NCBI GenBank assembly: GCA_029945665.1
Contig: JAQSCZ010000097.1
Coordinates: forward strand, 1 to 64,000
Reading direction: 5' to 3'
Source: a bacterium
Lineage (GTDB): Bacteria > Bacteroidota > Bacteroidia > NS11-12g > UBA955
Length of the DNA: 64,000 bases
The first letter of the stretch is position 1. Each line of letters starts with the position of its first letter. The notes under the pieces are model-generated. The model was given only the letters and a program-made list of their open reading frames with translations. It ran no database searches and was not told where the DNA came from. Of the stretch, positions 4,873-17,033 are shown piece by piece. The translations under genes were made by a program, and so were the position numbers.

Positions 4873-7800
4873 TTATCTGATAATTTGAACTGTACCATTC
4901 AGTACTGGTTCGTCTTTATCTTTTCCTTTGTATTTGTATTTAAGAATGTAGAAGTAAGTTCCCATTGGACACAAAGTGCCGTTGTTGTTTACTGTTCCAT
5001 CCCAATCTGTTTTCGAATCAGTAGATGAGAACACTTTAACACCCCAGCGGTCGAAGATTGTCAAATCATATTTCTCTTCACCTTTAATCTCGATGTTGAA
5101 CACATTGTTTCCTTGTAAGTTCTCTCTATCTAATCCATTGAAACCATCGTTAGAAGTCGGTGTGAATACGTTTGGTGGACGGATAGACGCTTCAAATCTA
5201 TTCACTATACGCTTACAAATTGTATCGCGACAACCGATGCTATTAATGGCTTCTAAACATACCCAGTAGGCGCCTTGTGAATCTCTATAGTCTCTGCAAG
5301 GTTTAGCTGCGTTGGCTCCAGCCGCATCAGATGCGAACCCTAGTTGAATATCAAACGTGCGGGCAGATGCTGGCGTAATGGCCATTATATCATTGGTGTT
5401 GTAGAAGCTCCAGTTGTGGTTCACACTATTGGTTGATTTATTCTCGAAACAGAACACAGGGGTGGCACTTGTATCGATATCAAAATCAGCTTTAACTAAT
5501 GCAACGGTAATTCTTACACTGTCTTCGGCAGGACAGACCTTACCAAATTGGGTGCTCACTGAATTCTTATCGCCCTTGAACTTGACTACATATATTCCTG
5601 GGTTAGCATAGCTCACGGTTCTGAAAGTATCCGTAAGTACTAGCGTATCATTCGGCGACAAACCAAGATTCCATTTATAACTGCTATACTTGGCAAATGG
5701 TATTATTTTACCGGTTAACAATACTGGTTGGTTGGTACAAACCGAAGTATCTTTAGGATTCAAGGTAACAGTATCATACTGGAAGATATCAATATAGAAT
5801 GGCTGCATTTGACCATCTGTTGTATCTGGCCACATAACACTACATGTTTTGGATGAACCATTTGGCATTTTCAATACAAATGTTTGCTGTAAGAAAATAT
5901 AATATCTACCTGCTTTAGTGTATGCGTGGGTAATGGTATCATTTTTAGCAACACCTGATTTGATGATTGTATCATATTGGTTATCGTAAACATTGTCTCC
6001 GAAATCCCAAGTCCAAATACTCTTATCTGCCAATGCATATTTACTTAAGTTAGTAAAGTCAATTTTCTCTCCCAGACAGTATTTTCTAGGAATGAAGGTT
6101 TCGAATAGCGGCAAAGGACCAGGAATATGTATCTTAACTTCGAAGGTATCCGTACAACCTAGGTAAGTATCAACGATTAACTTCACGATAAAGTCACCGT
6201 TTCTGGTAAAGTCATGGGCAATATTATTTGGCAATGAACCAAAGAATACGTTCTTAGCTGAACGGCTGCTATCGCCCCAATTGATTCTCCATTTTACGAT
6301 GTAATCACATACATCATTTAATTTCCATCTGCAAGGATCGTAAACAGATGAAGAGTCAAAGAATTCAACAATGGTTTTACATTCAGGACGGGTTTGACCT
6401 AAGTTAAAGTATGCTTTTGCTGCTGTTACAAAGATGTCTTGAGGAAAAGTATCGCGACAACCGGTGCTATCGCCAGCAGCAGTTCTTACTTGGTAATATC
6501 CACCTGTATCGGATAAGTAATAAACAGTACCTGGTACAGTTAATCCGCCTAATTGTACACAACGAGGAGTTCCAGTTCCAATACCAGTTTGACCATAAGG
6601 GAATGGACCGAAGATGGTATTCATGGTAGGTGGATTGTTTAACACATCATCCGCTTTACTCAAATCCCATTTAGTTTTTGCTTCTCTATTAGGTTGACCA
6701 GACTGACCTATTCTATCGCCCCAATAATCGGTTGGATCTAACAGACAGTTACAAATATCTGGATAAGCGTGGAAGTAATTGAACTGAGGACAAGCTTGAA
6801 CTATATCACCGTGACAAATGATAGTATCGCTATAATTCATTACACCATAGAATCCAACAATTACACGTTTTGCAGTACCACTTTGCATTGTACAATTTTC
6901 TGGGGCTCTACTTCTTAAACCGAAGTTGGCAATGAAGAATCCTGAATATTGCGGAACAAAGCAATAGGCATCGTATGTTTTTCCATCATAACCGGTTACG
7001 GTTTTTATAGGTTTAATAGTGGTATCTCTAAAGTGTAAGATATTTTTCTGATCTGCAACTTTATAGAATCTAATGAATCTACCAAATCCAGTGGTATCTA
7101 AACAACCTCTTGATCCAGTATAAGGCTTTTGGAAAGTTCCTTTTCCGTTCCATATAATTTCTGCAACTTGAGCAGGCGATAATTCATACACATCAATGTT
7201 ATTGGCCAATAAAATTTGTTTAATGATATCGAACACTGGTGTAATATCAGCTTCAGTATGCCATTTGGTAACTTCAGCAACTTTGATGTACTGACTATCA
7301 ATGGTAGCATACTTACCGTCAAAATACGAAGTTTGTTTATGGTACAAGTAATCGAATAAGTGGTTAGGGTCGTTCGGATCTACCTGGAATCTTTGGTAAG
7401 ATTCATTCACTTGTAAGGTATAATATTTATCGTAGTATTTACCAACGTTTGCGGCAGATAGACTCCAATTTAGTTCCTCTACATCTGGAATATAACTTCT
7501 GTTTCTAGGCATAAGCGCTAAACAAATGGTATCTTTTCTACAAATATTTGTAAACTCGGCACCTTGTTTTGGCTTAATGATTCTAAATTTATTATCCAAT
7601 ATTGGGAACCTCGCAAATTTGTTATAATAAACTGTATCAATACAAGTAGAAGGATATGCATCACCATCTGGTGGCCACATGCCATTACCAATGATTAAAC
7701 CAACGTTGATATAGCCGGTGATTGAATCTTTGATATCATCTACAGTGAATTGTTTTGAGTATCTGCTTCCTGGGGCACCCATAATTTGGTAACCCAAAGG

Positions 7801-10368
7801 TGGTACGTTATAAGGTGGGTTTACCGGAGGTAAATTACCAGAGGCTATTGAACCAGATGTTAAGTTTGCACCTACTGCATTAACCCAACCATTAGGATCT
7901 AAAGCTGTATCAAAATTAATTTGAGCAAATGTTTGCGTGCAACCAGGTTTGGTATCAGATAATATGAAAGTAATACCATAATTATTTTGACTACCACCTA
8001 AACACTGAACACCTTCTTTTCTCAATTTTTTAGCACTTGGCGGAACCAAAGCTAGAGAAACAATATCTTCTAATTCGCATGCCATTGGGTGGCATATATC
8101 TTTTTGCCATAACCTAGGATTAAAGCATCTTACAGTTGTTCCTTCATAGAATTTTTGTCTGTGGTAAGCTGCGTTAATACTATCGCCAACTTTAAACCCT
8201 TGCATTGGTATAATGGAGAATACTTTATGCCATGGCTGCAATAAATTAGCGGCGATTGTATCTTGTACATAAACAATCCAATAATTGAAACGTGCCGTAT
8301 CTGATTTAGATTTTAAAATTAAAGATTGACCCAGTTGTATGGTTTGGTATCTATAACCTACAATTCGATTTGGTGGGAAACCATTGTTATTGTCAATATA
8401 GGCGGTATCCGATTTCCTTAAATAGAACCTTGGTGTCTCTGTCGAAGCATCGAATCGGGCAGGCCCCGTAATGTAATTTGGCACTTTTACTCTTTGAGCC
8501 TTCCAATTTTTAAAAATTACAGAGTCTTTTGCGCTTGTAGCAAGCTTATTGTCGCCATAATAAATAATAGTATCTCTTATAATCGCCATTTGATTGGAAG
8601 GCCATATTTTTATTTGGATACATAAACCAGAATCTGAATTGTATTTGGTACCATTAGCCGCCCGCATACTAAATCTTGTTTGATAAATGGAATCCCATGG
8701 GGTATACCAATGTACTGGTAATGAATCTTTGGAATACTTACAATTCTTCAAAACGGTATTGATTCCGTTCTTGGTATCGGTTGTACATTTTTCGCAGAAA
8801 TCATCATCAAAATCCCATACTCTAACGACACATTCGTTGCCTCTTTTCTTAAGACCATCTGAGCCTAAGGCCGCATCGCGGGTTACTTGACCTGTAGGTG
8901 TTTTAAAAATATGAGTGTAAGGATAGTTAAATCCGCCCTTACCTTTTAACCAAATCATGAAATTTTTGTCAAACGGCTCATTTGGATTTACCAAAGAGTC
9001 ATGAACAAAATCATATTTCAAACTGTCATACACCATCCATGTACTATCATCATTATAAAATGTTTTATCGTTGTGATAGAATACTGAATTATTCGGAAAA
9101 TGCACTGAATCTGTGATCACACACTGGAATTTTTCAAAATCCTTAATACGGTCGCCAGGTTTTTCCATGGCACTTGAAGGACCCAGAACAAGAATGGTAT
9201 CATAAATCTCTCTGTTACCACAAATTGGGTGACTATAAGTAAACTTTATTTTGTATGGACCTAAGCCAGAAAATTTGTGTGAACCTACCCATTGTCGGGT
9301 TATATTCAATGGACCTGTTGGAGGGTCACCGTAATTAAACGTAGGACTTATTGCTTTGGCGATTGAACCCCCTTTAATACTAAAATTAATAGTGGGTGTT
9401 TTGATACATACCGAATCAAAATCGGCAATAATTTTTGGATTTAACTTAATGTTTGTTGCAGAGCTAAAAAATGTGAATGACTCTTTGCAACCAAAATTAT
9501 CAAGAACAGTTAATTTGGTATTAAAATCACCAGCATTCGGACCTTGAACTTTGAAAGTATGCGAAGCTGTTGGCTTCCAACTCGTTGTATTAGGTGGTGA
9601 ACCATCACCCCAATCCCAAGCAAAACTTTTAATATCAGATAAAGCAATTAATGAATTATTCGTTACCGTTAATTTTACACTATCGCAGGCTTGTGGTCTA
9701 GGTGATGTAAAAGACAATCCCATAGAAGCTCGCACAGTGCAGATATTAGGATAATTCTTTCTAGTTATACAACCGTTACAATCTTCAACTTCAACCAACA
9801 TATCGTATGTTCCACCCGCAGGATCTTTGAAAGATTTACAAAATGTATTTGGCAATGTTACACCAGCTGGCGCAGTACCACATATTTTGATTAACTCACC
9901 ATCTGAGAACAAATACTTAATACATTTAATACAATTCGATCCTCCAGGATCATTGATGGGTTTGGTTTGGTCTTTAAAACAAAATGAATTGCCAAAGAAA
10001 CAACTCGTATCGTTATTTAATTGAACAATGTCAATAACTGGAGCCTCCTTAATTGTGAAAGTAAACTGGGCAGTACATGTATTGCCATTCGCCAATTTCA
10101 AAGTAAGGTTAATTACTTTTACCCCAGATGTTGTAAAAGTAAAGGTCGGATTACAAACTGTTGTGTTACCCCCTTGGCTGTTAAAATCCCAATTGTAGTT
10201 ACTTGCTCCGACTGTGTTACAGAAGAATTGGATCGGTTGACCCACACAAGGTGGCGCTCCGTTCGTTGTAATGTTACATTGAGCGTCTACAGACAAATAG
10301 CTCAAAAGCATTGCTACCATTAGGCCGAATGCTTTAATTTTGCTGTTTATTTTATACTTTATATTCAT
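4873..10368 (-). CDS. Giant PKD-domain surface protein with T9SS type B (gliding motility-associated) C-terminal sorting domain
   Basis: 1831 aa; signal peptide; repeated PKD-type motifs (YNWDFNSQGG, AWDWGDGSPP, WTWDFGDN); C-term 'NVFTPTSNDGFNG...YDLTIFDRWGVKVFSS...WDGTVNNNGTLCPMGTYFYILKYK...GTVQIIR'. Confidence 0.93.
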   Translation of the reverse strand: MNIKYKINSKIKAFGLMVAMLLSYLSVDAQCNITTNGAPPCVGQPIQFFCNTVGASNYNWDFNSQGGNTTVCNPTFTFTTSGVKVINLTLKLANGNTCTAQFTFTIKEAPVIDIVQLNNDTSCFFGNSFCFKDQTKPINDPGGSNCIKCIKYLFSDGELIKICGTAPAGVTLPNTFCKSFKDPAGGTYDMLVEVEDCNGCITRKNYPNICTVRASMGLSFTSPRPQACDSVKLTVTNNSLIALSDIKSFAWDWGDGSPPNTTSWKPTASHTFKVQGPNAGDFNTKLTVLDNFGCKESFTFFSSATNIKLNPKIIADFDSVCIKTPTINFSIKGGSIAKAISPTFNYGDPPTGPLNITRQWVGSHKFSGLGPYKIKFTYSHPICGNREIYDTILVLGPSSAMEKPGDRIKDFEKFQCVITDSVHFPNNSVFYHNDKTFYNDDSTWMVYDSLKYDFVHDSLVNPNEPFDKNFMIWLKGKGGFNYPYTHIFKTPTGQVTRDAALGSDGLKKRGNECVVRVWDFDDDFCEKCTTDTKNGINTVLKNCKYSKDSLPVHWYTPWDSIYQTRFSMRAANGTKYNSDSGLCIQIKIWPSNQMAIIRDTIIYYGDNKLATSAKDSVIFKNWKAQRVKVPNYITGPARFDASTETPRFYLRKSDTAYIDNNNGFPPNRIVGYRYQTIQLGQSLILKSKSDTARFNYWIVYVQDTIAANLLQPWHKVFSIIPMQGFKVGDSINAAYHRQKFYEGTTVRCFNPRLWQKDICHPMACELEDIVSLALVPPSAKKLRKEGVQCLGGSQNNYGITFILSDTKPGCTQTFAQINFDTALDPNGWVNAVGANLTSGSIASGNLPPVNPPYNVPPLGYQIMGAPGSRYSKQFTVDDIKDSITGYINVGLIIGNGMWPPDGDAYPSTCIDTVYYNKFARFPILDNKFRIIKPKQGAEFTNICRKDTICLALMPRNRSYIPDVEELNWSLSAANVGKYYDKYYTLQVNESYQRFQVDPNDPNHLFDYLYHKQTSYFDGKYATIDSQYIKVAEVTKWHTEADITPVFDIIKQILLANNIDVYELSPAQVAEIIWNGKGTFQKPYTGSRGCLDTTGFGRFIRFYKVADQKNILHFRDTTIKPIKTVTGYDGKTYDAYCFVPQYSGFFIANFGLRSRAPENCTMQSGTAKRVIVGFYGVMNYSDTIICHGDIVQACPQFNYFHAYPDICNCLLDPTDYWGDRIGQSGQPNREAKTKWDLSKADDVLNNPPTMNTIFGPFPYGQTGIGTGTPRCVQLGGLTVPGTVYYLSDTGGYYQVRTAAGDSTGCRDTFPQDIFVTAAKAYFNLGQTRPECKTIVEFFDSSSVYDPCRWKLNDVCDYIVKWRINWGDSSRSAKNVFFGSLPNNIAHDFTRNGDFIVKLIVDTYLGCTDTFEVKIHIPGPLPLFETFIPRKYCLGEKIDFTNLSKYALADKSIWTWDFGDNVYDNQYDTIIKSGVAKNDTITHAYTKAGRYYIFLQQTFVLKMPNGSSKTCSVMWPDTTDGQMQPFYIDIFQYDTVTLNPKDTSVCTNQPVLLTGKIIPFAKYSSYKWNLGLSPNDTLVLTDTFRTVSYANPGIYVVKFKGDKNSVSTQFGKVCPAEDSVRITVALVKADFDIDTSATPVFCFENKSTNSVNHNWSFYNTNDIMAITPASARTFDIQLGFASDAAGANAAKPCRDYRDSQGAYWVCLEAINSIGCRDTICKRIVNRFEASIRPPNVFTPTSNDGFNGLDRENLQGNNVFNIEIKGEEKYDLTIFDRWGVKVFSSTDSKTDWDGTVNNNGTLCPMGTYFYILKYKYKGKDKDEPVLNGTVQIIR

Positions 10369-10422: not shown

Positions 10423-11316
10423 TTATCGAATTAATTTTAGTTTAATGGTCTTGTTTACACTTGGTAAATTTGGGAATTTATAGATTACGGTTACTAAGTA
10501 ACTTCCTTCACGATAAACTTCGCCGTTTAACATGATACAATTCCATGGTTGGTGTTTATTATCTGTTTCAAAAATTATGTTGTATTTCAAATCCCTTATG
10601 GTGATTTTTACACTCTCTTCGCCTTTAATGTCAATGAAATACTCATCATTTAAGCCATCGCCATTCGGTGTTACCACATCTGGAATAAACAGGTAGGTAC
10701 TGTCTGGTTTTTTGGCAACATAATTATCTCGAACTGCTAAAAACGGAGTGGGTACAGAATCTAGTTTAGGTTTATTTTCAGCAACTTTAATCTCTGCTTG
10801 CTTTTCAAGATCTTTGATTAATTGTAAACTTGGTGTAAAATTTAGATTGTTCTGATCTTTTGAAGGCTTCGCTTTCACTTCGGCAGGCAATAGTTTTACT
10901 TTAACAGATGCTTTTTCTACTTCCTTATTGCGTGCCTTAGCCTCTAATTTTGAAGGTATTTTCGATCTTTCGATATTGGCACCATTCGTTTCTTGAGGGA
11001 CAACTATCTCACTGGCAATTTTAGGCTCAGCTTGTATCGCTGGTTCTGAAGCAACTACCTGTAAAGGTTGTGAAACCGAAGTTGGTGTTGCGTCTTTTGT
11101 TAAAAAATAAACAGAGGAGACAACTACTGTGGCAGCAATAACTGCAACACTTAGTTTTAGCCACAAGGCTGCTTTGGCCACTACTACCGAGCTGGTACCA
11201 GAGGCTATCGACGATGAAACGGTTTCCCATACACCAACTGGCGGGGTAGCAGATGCTCCTTCCAATTGCTGTTTGAAAAAATTATCAAACTCCGATATGT
11301 TATTTTCGTTCTTCAC
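10423..11316 (-). CDS. Anti-sigma-factor-like single-pass membrane protein with periplasmic gliding-motility/T9SS type B-like C-terminal domain
   Basis: 297 aa; N-term 'FDNFFKQQLEGASATPPVGVWETVSSSI' typical of Bacteroidota anti-sigma proteins, one TM (LKLSVAVIAATVVVSSVYFL), C-term 'DVVTPNGDGLNDEYFIDIKGEESVKITIRDLKYNIIFETDN...WNCIMLNGEVYREGSYLVTVIYKF...KLKLIR'. Confidence 0.75.
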   Translation of the reverse strand: MKNENNISEFDNFFKQQLEGASATPPVGVWETVSSSIASGTSSVVVAKAALWLKLSVAVIAATVVVSSVYFLTKDATPTSVSQPLQVVASEPAIQAEPKIASEIVVPQETNGANIERSKIPSKLEAKARNKEVEKASVKVKLLPAEVKAKPSKDQNNLNFTPSLQLIKDLEKQAEIKVAENKPKLDSVPTPFLAVRDNYVAKKPDSTYLFIPDVVTPNGDGLNDEYFIDIKGEESVKITIRDLKYNIIFETDNKHQPWNCIMLNGEVYREGSYLVTVIYKFPNLPSVNKTIKLKLIR

Positions 11317-11861
11317 TTTAAATTTCTTTTTAATATGATCGCTTGTAAATGTTGACGCGCTTTGAACAATTGACTTTTGCTAGTATTTTCGGACACATTG
11401 AGCATTTGGGCAATTTCTTCATGACCATACCCTTCAATGATAAACAAGTTGAACACTGTGCGATAACCGTTCGGCAATTGTTGAACAATGGCCATTAAAT
11501 CATCTACTTTTAAATTCGAAAGGATGTGTGATTCAAATGGTTGATTTTCTGCAATGTCCAGAGAGTTTGTGGTCGCTTCCCTTTGGGCCTTTCGATAAAA
11601 CTCAATACTGGTATTAATAAAAATACGTTTCACCCAACCTTCAAAAGAGCCTTTGCCTTCAAATTGTCCTAAATATTTAAACATTTTGATAAACCCTTCC
11701 TGCAAAATATCCTTGGCTTCATCATTGTTCTTAGCGTAACGCAAACAAATTGCGTACATTTTCGGCGATAATATGTCAAATAACTCTTTCTGTGCCTTTG
11801 GTTTGTTTTCAATACATTGCTTTACAATTTCGCTCAGTTTTTCCGCATTGAAAATGGCCAT
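11313..11861 (-). CDS. ECF-type RNA polymerase sigma-70 factor
   Basis: 182 aa; sigma70 r2 'YAICLRYAKNNDEAKDILQEGFIKMFKYLGQFEGKGSFEGWVKRIFINTSIEFYR', r4 'LPNGYRTVFNLFIIEGYGHEEIAQMLNVSENTSKSQLFKARQHL'. Confidence 0.95.
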   Translation of the reverse strand: MAIFNAEKLSEIVKQCIENKPKAQKELFDILSPKMYAICLRYAKNNDEAKDILQEGFIKMFKYLGQFEGKGSFEGWVKRIFINTSIEFYRKAQREATTNSLDIAENQPFESHILSNLKVDDLMAIVQQLPNGYRTVFNLFIIEGYGHEEIAQMLNVSENTSKSQLFKARQHLQAIILKRNLK

Positions 11862-11939
11862 TTACACAGTTAGTTGAATGTTAATTCTATAAGTAGAAGT
11901 AAAAAGGCAAGCCTAGGTTGCCTCAAGACAAAAAAAAAA

Positions 11940-12410
11940 TTAATTTTCTTCGATTTCGATTTTAGCAATATCGTAACGGTCCATCAACGCTTTATAGGTT
12001 GTTTCGGAGTAAAACCCAATACTTTCAATGGCTTCCACAATATCTTCTTGTTTCAATCCATTGCATATTCTTCTGAATTTAACCGCTAATACATTTTCTT
12101 CTTTGTTAATTGTATATGAAGCATAAAGCATATTGAGGTTATTATGCAACAATTCTTGGTAGAATTGTTCGGTATTTACTGTCGGTAAATAAGCAACGGG
12201 CGAAATCACTTGGAATATAAAAAGGGGCTCCTCAGATTCGAAATACAGCCATGCATTTTGACTTTTTTGTTCCCACATGTCGATATAAATCTCTGTGTCT
12301 CCATTGTATAACACCCATTGTCCTTTTTCAGAACTGCGCGCATCTACAGGGTTTAACCCTAAAAAAGCAAGGGTTGTTTCGATTAAATTGTTGTAGGTTT
12401 CAAAATCCAT
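11940..12410 (-). CDS. YbjN-like domain protein (putative)
   Basis: Reads as a single small alpha/beta domain; ATG at 12410 preferred (ORF track 12437); family assignment by resemblance only. Confidence 0.45.
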   Translation of the reverse strand: MDFETYNNLIETTLAFLGLNPVDARSSEKGQWVLYNGDTEIYIDMWEQKSQNAWLYFESEEPLFIFQVISPVAYLPTVNTEQFYQELLHNNLNMLYASYTINKEENVLAVKFRRICNGLKQEDIVEAIESIGFYSETTYKALMDRYDIAKIEIEEN

Positions 12411-12510
12411 GACAGCTAATTTTATAATTTTCTGCAAAATTATATATTTATAGTATCAGATTTTAAATAGATATCACTTAATTTCGCACAAAAATAAAAT
12501 ATTAAAGAAT

Positions 12511-14855: not shown

Positions 14856-17033
14856 TTAACGCAAAAGAAGCACAGTGCCAGAGGCATTACTCTTTTTAAT
14901 GTAGCGGCCATTTGGTGTTGTATAGAACAATTTCCAAAGGTATAAATCCTGTTCACAAGCCTTACCCTTGTACTGACCATTCCAACCCACATTGTCTTGA
15001 TCGGTTTCAAATACGATCTCACCCCATCGGTTATAAATTTGAAACAGCTTAACGGTCATGTTCTTGCCTTCTGGTTTAAATATAGCATTTAACAAATCGT
15101 TATCGGGCGAGAAAGCAGTGGCCATAAACAAATCGCAATAATCATTTTGAAAGAAAATAAATACCGAATCTTGACTCGTACCACAAGCATTGGTTACAAC
15201 AACAGAATATTTACCCGAATTGTACACATAATAAAGACTGTCTGTACTTCCATCTTGCCAAAGATAAGTGCTATTGCCCGGGTTGGTTGCTCTTAGAATT
15301 AATCCATTGCCTTTGCAAACTGATGTATCCTTTCCTAATTCAACAATCGGTTCAGTAGAAAAAACAACAAGAACTGTATCGCTTGCATCGCAATTTCCTT
15401 CTGTAACTTTTACTATATACTCTCCAGAATTCGCCACACCAATTGTTTGCGTAACTGCCCCAGTATTCCATAAATAAGAGCCTATGGTATAATTCGCGTC
15501 AAGTGTCACAGCGCCAGTTAAACACTGTACAACATCTGGGCCTATCGCAGGTTTTGGTGTTGGATTTACTTTGAAAGATTGAACGGTTGAATCCTTGCAA
15601 TATTTGGTAGCGAAAACATATTTCAAAGTATAACTACCAACAACATTGGGCGAAAAGGTATAACCGGGGCTGGCAACTGGCAGTCCACCTGAAAATACGC
15701 CACCGATAGAATCGGGTATCAAAGTAACCAATTGATTCGAACTACAATATTCAGCAGATAAGCCTTTAAAATTAGCACTAATATCAGGTAATACGCTTAC
15801 ATAATTTGTATCTCGCCCTTTACAACCATTGGCAGCATAGGCGACATGAATAACTTGAAAGGTGCCAGTATCCTTGTAGCTATGGGCCACCGTTTTAAGA
15901 CTACTTGAGTCTTTATCACCGAAATACCATTTAAAATAGGTTAAATTGTTATCTCTATTATTAAAAATAAATTGATTATTTTTAATACACTGTGCCCTTT
16001 TGGTGGTATCAGGACCAATAGTAATTCGACCAACTGGGCTAGGTAAAACCTCTATACTAAACCTCAAAGTATCCTTACAATTGGTTGGTTTTTGATTAAC
16101 ATTTGTCAGGAGCTCTAGCATTACATTATAAACACCGCTTTTGGTGTAAGAATGTTTCATTGTCCTTAAAATATCAATATCGGAAGAGTCGCCAAAAAAC
16201 CAACGGTATGTAAATGATTTAGCTAAGGGAGAAGCTACTGGCTTAGGATCTACCACAAAATAGTTGCTTTCCAAACACTGAATACTATCAACAAATTTTG
16301 TATGATCTATGATTGCTACTCGTTTTGGATAAATGCGAACTTTATCATATACATCTGCCAAACAACCATAGCTAGGCGAAGCTGTGAGCTTTACAAGTAC
16401 AACCCCAGATCTATTAACATAACTATGCGAAACTGTTGAACCTACAGGGCCATTCACAGTTCCTGACCCATCACTAAAATCGTAACTGTAAGTAACTCCG
16501 GGAATGGTAGACGTCGAAAAATTTGTAAATTCATAGTTATTCCGAATCTCACAACTGTCCTTAAATAGTGTCTTAAAACTCAAATTTAGGCAATATGTAG
16601 TAACAGTAATAAGGGGAGCCATTGATGTATTGTAGAGCGTAGTATTCCCGTTGTTATCGTGCTCATATATTTGAAACGTATAATCTGTACAAGGCTTCAA
16701 ACTATCAATTTTAACAAAATTGGTACCATTGGCATTGTAGACTATATAACAATTGGCTGGTGTACCATATTTTGGTGCTGTATTACCAATTAAATTAAAG
16801 TAAGGTTTTGGCGTGTAGGCATTGTCATCTACAGGCACAAAGTTGGGTGCCACTGTACCTTCGGTGGCAACAATAATTCTTGCCAACCCATTGCCATAAG
16901 CAAAGTTTAACTGTACAGAGTTACAGGTGATTTGAGAAACGGTAAAATTTGATGCTTGAATGCTTGGTCGTGTAGCATTCGCCGCCGACAAAGAGAGAAC
17001 CAAAAGCAACCATATAGCGCATAACTTTTTCAA
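14856..17033 (-). CDS. PKD-domain T9SS type B sorting domain-containing secreted protein
   Basis: 725 aa; signal peptide, PKD motifs (SYDFSDGSG, YRWFFGDSS, FKWYFGDKDSS), C-term 'FSPDNDLLNAIFKPEGKNMTVKLFQIYNRWGEIVFETDQDNVGWNGQYKGKACEQDLYLWKLFY'. Confidence 0.92.
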   Translation of the reverse strand: MKKLCAIWLLLVLSLSAANATRPSIQASNFTVSQITCNSVQLNFAYGNGLARIIVATEGTVAPNFVPVDDNAYTPKPYFNLIGNTAPKYGTPANCYIVYNANGTNFVKIDSLKPCTDYTFQIYEHDNNGNTTLYNTSMAPLITVTTYCLNLSFKTLFKDSCEIRNNYEFTNFSTSTIPGVTYSYDFSDGSGTVNGPVGSTVSHSYVNRSGVVLVKLTASPSYGCLADVYDKVRIYPKRVAIIDHTKFVDSIQCLESNYFVVDPKPVASPLAKSFTYRWFFGDSSDIDILRTMKHSYTKSGVYNVMLELLTNVNQKPTNCKDTLRFSIEVLPSPVGRITIGPDTTKRAQCIKNNQFIFNNRDNNLTYFKWYFGDKDSSSLKTVAHSYKDTGTFQVIHVAYAANGCKGRDTNYVSVLPDISANFKGLSAEYCSSNQLVTLIPDSIGGVFSGGLPVASPGYTFSPNVVGSYTLKYVFATKYCKDSTVQSFKVNPTPKPAIGPDVVQCLTGAVTLDANYTIGSYLWNTGAVTQTIGVANSGEYIVKVTEGNCDASDTVLVVFSTEPIVELGKDTSVCKGNGLILRATNPGNSTYLWQDGSTDSLYYVYNSGKYSVVVTNACGTSQDSVFIFFQNDYCDLFMATAFSPDNDLLNAIFKPEGKNMTVKLFQIYNRWGEIVFETDQDNVGWNGQYKGKACEQDLYLWKLFYTTPNGRYIKKSNASGTVLLLR

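Follow-up and report, generated by a model that had tools for sequence, protein, structure and literature searches.

The window, as we call the whole 64,000-nucleotide stretch of Bacteroidota DNA analyzed here, carries on its minus strand a unit of three genes, and all features of this unit that are located below lie on that strand. The first gene (11313–11861) encodes a 182-aa ECF sigma factor with the Pfam domains Sigma70_r2 and Sigma70_r4_2; the second (10423–11316), which starts with GTG and overlaps the first by 4 bp, encodes a 297-aa anti-sigma-like inner-membrane protein with a C-terminal CHU_C domain; and the third (4873–10368) encodes a giant, PKD-rich T9SS type B cargo of 1831 aa. 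The architecture is that of an ECF pair, in which a sigma factor with regions r2 and r4 is accompanied by an overlapping downstream gene for a membrane anti-sigma factor. A preliminary description of this DNA, made from the sequence alone, had given the same order of sigma factor, anti-sigma-like protein and 1831-aa PKD protein with exact coordinates, and Pfam searches confirmed the domains. The cargo begins with a signal-peptide-like sequence and contains PKD domains and a CHU_C sorting domain (Pfam, 54.7 bits; 4915–5112) in which the RWG motif is intact. In the genus, the gene just upstream of the sigma factor gene (window 11940–12437) encodes a 165-aa protein with weak similarity to the chaperone-like CesT_Tir_1 (18.5 bits, cut-off 27); in a second family within the order, similarly sized genes occupy that place. 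The window also encodes a second CHU_C PKD protein, of 725 aa (14856–17033), which has no sigma pair of its own.

In the AlphaFold2 model of the anti-sigma-like protein, helices at residues 7–19 and 29–38 make up a predicted cytoplasmic head (residues 7–38; 11203–11298), which was also recovered by a profile match and bears the motif FDxxFKxxLExAxxxPPxGVWExxSS. A single long helix (residues 54–74; 11095–11157) is the predicted transmembrane (TM) segment; it is followed by a disordered, presumably periplasmic linker of low pLDDT (residues 75–203; 10708–11094) and by a β-sandwich with pLDDT of about 95–98 (residues 204–297; 10426–10707). The protein has no N-terminal signal peptide: the head comes first, and the helix at 54–74 is the sole hydrophobic one. 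Given the gene order and an N-terminal motif common to other anti-sigma-like proteins, the head is predicted to bind the sigma factor. Of 104 orthologues, 99 have a hydrophobic, TM-like segment, and the stretch between this segment and the C-terminal domain (CTD) spans 105–392 aa among the relatives, with a median of about 195. Among 25 anti-sigma factors from across the class, picked by similarity to the anti-sigma protein, all 25 contain CHU_C and 17 contain PKD; thus, the full form of these proteins comprises head, TM helix, tether, PKD and CHU_C, of which the PKD domain is absent from the window's own protein. At one related locus (L037), the anti-sigma protein is only about 50% identical to that of the window, versus 95% for the sigma factor and 91% for the cargo, and hence the anti-sigma protein evolves far faster than its two neighbors.

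The claim that the anti-sigma-like protein bears a T9SS type B-like domain, and that this domain and the C-terminus of the cargo are the same module, was borne out by the profile searches and the model. Residues 210–279 match Pfam CHU_C with 33.6 bits, above the gathering cut-off of 27, and the cargo domain likewise scores above this cut-off. With TIGR04131 the anti-sigma protein and the cargo score 21.7 and 31.1 bits, respectively, both below the cut-off of 35, so that this model by itself, applied at its cut-off, would miss the anti-sigma domain. A phmmer search of the whole protein against the PDB returned chance matches only and a structure search was required; the Foldseek matches include PorZ, PorU and, from the extended T9SS translocon, RemZ, alongside other Ig-like domains. 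Type B CTDs are described by CHU_C (PF13585) and TIGR04131, with SprB of Flavobacterium johnsoniae as an example (PMC12618676, PMC9143113). The anti-sigma domain resembles them in its Pfam score, its fold and its C-terminal position; it differs in its sub-threshold TIGR04131 score, in being joined to an inner-membrane anti-sigma protein that lacks a signal peptide, in the absence of a PorP/SprF shuttle gene near the operon and, most sharply, in the RWG motif. None of 105 anti-sigma CTDs has this motif, as opposed to 69 of the 76 from giant cargos and 33 of the 44 from other CTD proteins, whereas the core residues D220, N223, W258 and Y273 are kept in the anti-sigma domain. In F. johnsoniae, five conserved type B motifs are each required for secretion (PMC12618676). 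RWG probably falls within one of the five. The absence of RWG suggests that the CHU_C domain of the anti-sigma protein probably serves for docking or sensing and not as a functional export tag; moreover, an anti-sigma protein whose head is kept in the cytoplasm could not be exported whole. The missing motif offers a sharp, testable way to tell sensing domains from export domains.

A survey of the co-occurrence of sigma factor, CTD-bearing anti-sigma factor and giant cargo, of the kind suggested in the preliminary description, showed that the pairing is conserved. Within the window's order, CHU_C was detected in 36 of 36 sampled anti-sigma factors with Pfam and in 48 of 48 with a profile, which indicates that the domain is not present on these proteins by chance. 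Of the loci examined in the window's family and a second one within the order, all except a few have the three genes arranged in this way, with the genes beyond the cargo varying (mnmE in one family, metH in the other), and the unit recurs in several further families of the class. A CHU_C anti-sigma factor is also encoded by a cultured relative, Crocinitomix catalasitica ATCC 23190 (locus L218). A joining of a cargo tail to the anti-sigma protein by accident, devoid of function, would be easily made given the abundance of CHU_C in the genome (56 matches), but all 48 loci from the order have kept the domain, as have many families beyond it, and the four core residues are conserved; this already disfavors the explanation, which we consider extremely improbable. 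As for the cargo, in 40 further loci, chosen by similarity to the anti-sigma protein, a sigma factor of the same subfamily is encoded directly upstream in nearly all, and in 22 of 36 a CTD protein, often a giant one, directly downstream. For about 40–50% of the CHU_C anti-sigma factors outside the order, the next gene does not encode a CTD protein, and the linkage to the cargo is therefore not universal. When loci were instead selected by the sigma factor, a CTD protein was found directly downstream of 7 of 15 CHU_C anti-sigma factors and of none of 46 others (Fisher p 1.5e-5, a value that overstates independence because the loci are related). One contig in the survey, at locus L188, is labeled Sphingomonadales; its match to a genome from the family of the window, and its possession of this Bacteroidota operon, indicate that the record is probably mislabeled.

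The sigma factor belongs to a distinct subfamily, in which orthologues are recovered at 1e-59 to 1e-75 and unrelated neighboring sigma factors at 1e-33 to 1e-37. In a sample of 80 named loci picked by the sigma protein alone, regardless of the anti-sigma factor, 26 of the anti-sigma proteins end in a barrel, 20 in CHU_C, 26 are short and without any outer domain, and 8 are of other kinds or cut off. Since barrel-type and domain-less partners are each commoner in this subfamily than those with CHU_C, the CHU_C tail is best understood as a swap within the class typified by Dma, the dual membrane-spanning anti-sigma factors, whose plan consists of an anti-sigma head, one TM helix, a disordered tether and an outer-membrane barrel (PMC13088901). 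When profiles of the CHU_C-type and barrel-type proteins are compared, the alignment is confined to the head and the TM helix (probability 97.4, E 1.2e-11), and the barrel-type relatives share both the head and the sigma subfamily with the window's protein. The genome itself encodes five more sigma factors of the subfamily, each followed by an anti-sigma-type protein of about 460–500 aa, some of them truncated where the sequence that was read stops; at least three of the five match the barrel profile, and the one that was modeled shows a head, a TM helix, a disordered tether and long strands like those of OmpA/Ail barrels. On the sigma factor tree the CHU_C tail is clustered, with nine changes, of which well-supported branches force only one.

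The comparison with Dma can be made feature by feature. The anti-sigma head, the single TM helix, the long disordered tether and the adjoining ECF sigma gene are common to both; in place of the outer-membrane barrel, the window's protein has the CHU_C β-sandwich, with a giant T9SS cargo encoded next to it. The neighbor of Dma is a cognate ECF21 sigma factor; in the window, the overlapping gene encodes an ECF sigma factor of a subfamily that includes the partners of barrel anti-sigma factors. Since it lacks one defining feature of Dma (the barrel) and two that mark type B cargos (the signal peptide and RWG), the protein is best classed as a new variant that follows the Dma plan, not as a Dma by definition. 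Our literature search, which covered papers under open licence, turned up no description of an anti-sigma factor with a T9SS domain. The kinship with Dma also raises the prospect that CHU_C simply replaces the barrel as an anchor on the outer-membrane side, with the tether sensing the distance or integrity of the envelope, for example, during blebbing. This would agree with the barrel standing at that very position in proteins with the same head and sigma subfamily, from relatives as well as from this genome, and with the effect of Dma1 and Dma2 on vesiculation (PMC13088901). CHU_C, however, is a soluble fold that cannot sit in a membrane by itself, and about a third of the sigma-selected anti-sigma proteins (26/80) have no outer domain at all. 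We hold this explanation to be quite unlikely.

A promoter-like element, GGCAACC-N17-TTCTA (11894–11922), lies 32 bp before the start of the sigma factor gene. Among 48 loci of the order, 34 have the strict pattern in front of this gene, versus 0.1 expected from shuffling, and the element is a candidate promoter through which the sigma factor would autoregulate its own operon. In the window's genome, 17 sites match with at most one mismatch, and only the one before the sigma factor gene is placed like a promoter; the strict motif thus gives no support for a wide regulon in this genome, its other sites lying inside genes or at a distance from their starts. The motif is absent before all five paralogous sigma factor genes of the same genome. 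In some relatives within the genus, a motif of the operon type precedes giant-cargo paralogues that are not linked to the operon: for one paralogue, 3 of 7 loci outscore all 259 control regions and 6 of 7 fall under 0.05, and a second paralogue shows a weaker version, in which GTCTTA takes the −10 position, start codons in this scoring being uncertain in places. The presence of the motif before these genes suggests that the regulon probably centers on giant cargos, apparently comprising the operon and, in certain species, additional giant cargos.

T9SS genes are present in the genome, namely, those for SprA, two GldM and two PorP/SprF; the GldM genes lie in tandem (contig C83, 5455–7005 and 8261–9826), with a PorP/SprF gene close by. 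In F. johnsoniae, type B cargos mostly have a PorP/SprF-type shuttle of their own. Here, the whole genome contains 56 matches to TIGR04131-type (CHU_C) domains and only two PorP/SprF-like shuttles, so that either the shuttles are shared or other carriers exist.

The preliminary description proposed that the type B domain of the anti-sigma protein could sense secretion capacity by vying with cargo for the translocon of the T9SS. The site of engagement might also be a PorP/SprF-like shuttle, and occupancy would set the release of the sigma factor. Such competition would fit the shared fold of the anti-sigma C-terminus and T9SS CTDs, the T9SS genes of the genome, a linker long enough to reach the outer membrane, a regulon whose apparent targets are cargos, and the precedent of PorA, a CTD protein that acts upstream of a sigma factor pathway (PMC7712824). 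It is at odds with the loss of RWG from all 105 anti-sigma domains, given the requirement for each of the five motifs noted above, and with the missing shuttle gene near the operon. Furthermore, no coupling was found between the anti-sigma CTD and the CTD of its own cargo (p 0.09, median rank 22.5 of 64): neither co-variation nor concerted change was seen, the anti-sigma domain being no closer to the CTD of its own cargo than to those of other cargos. We regard this explanation as unlikely, and the absence of RWG and of coupling weighs against its simplest form, competition for the translocon.

Alternatively, CHU_C, together with PKD in many relatives, could be an Ig-like module whose ligand is the giant cargo or something else in the periplasm, the secretion machine playing no part. 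The resemblance of the anti-sigma tail to the cargo tail, including the PKD plus CHU_C combination in 17 of 25 class-wide members, the retention of the β-sandwich core without RWG, and the fact that the linked cargo is the strongest association all speak for direct binding, but the many CHU_C anti-sigma factors outside the order that have no adjacent cargo, and the lack of co-variation within operon pairs, speak against it; on this evidence it is a tentative possibility, somewhat unlikely in our estimate.

The reading that we prefer, with modest confidence, is that the three genes form an autoregulated sigma/anti-sigma switch that is devoted to giant T9SS type B surface proteins and is built on the Dma plan. 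Its basis lies in sequence and structure models, namely, the domains, the shared head with its swapped tail, the three-gene unit, the absence of RWG and the promoter motif. Under this proposal, the N-terminal head would hold the sigma factor in the cytoplasm, the single helix would cross the inner membrane with its N-terminus inside, and the long flexible tether would span the periplasm, so as to place the modified type B domain, devoid of RWG, where Dma proteins have their outer-membrane barrel. There it might dock, unexported, to a partner at or near the outer membrane, which might be a T9SS component, a shuttle or the cargo, and a change in docking could free the sigma factor, so that more cargo would be made. 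A more specific version, which strikes us as unlikely, has the anti-sigma protein sense the state of secretion by mimicry: the type B domain, itself dead for export, would dock at the T9SS outer-membrane machinery or shuttle when this is free of cargo, whereupon the sigma factor would be released and the giant cargo made. Were mimicry to operate in this way, it would constitute a feedback loop between cargo and secretion that spans both membranes.

FecR-type anti-sigma factors that take part in signaling by TonB receptors receive an outer-membrane signal through a periplasmic C-terminal domain and thereby free an ECF sigma factor. The proposed switch is similar in that a periplasmic C-terminal domain would relay an outer-membrane signal to the same effect, but unlike in FecR systems, neither a receptor signaling domain nor a TonB-dependent receptor was seen in the three-gene unit. 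In Porphyromonas gingivalis, PorA and PorXY–SigP place a CTD protein upstream of an ECF sigma factor pathway that concerns the T9SS (PMC7712824); PorA, however, is a separate surface protein that acts through the PorXY two-component system, whereas in the window the CTD is part of the anti-sigma protein itself and the apparent targets are cargos. The variant described here links two systems specific to Bacteroidota, the trans-envelope anti-sigma factors of the Dma type and the T9SS, in which the coupling of cargo supply to secretion is poorly understood. Given that the outer end of these proteins is swapped among a barrel, a T9SS-type domain and nothing, comparison of the variants should reveal the signals to which the anti-sigma factors respond.

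Of 108 genomes from the order, 101 encode a relative of the giant cargo, including 63 of the 64 of best quality. At one locus (L042, genome G004) an in-frame TGA interrupts the giant cargo gene, and at another (L002, 2336–3016 and 3033–3686) two adjacent genes encode proteins of 217–226 aa that consist of little beyond the giant-cargo tail and the type B CTD.
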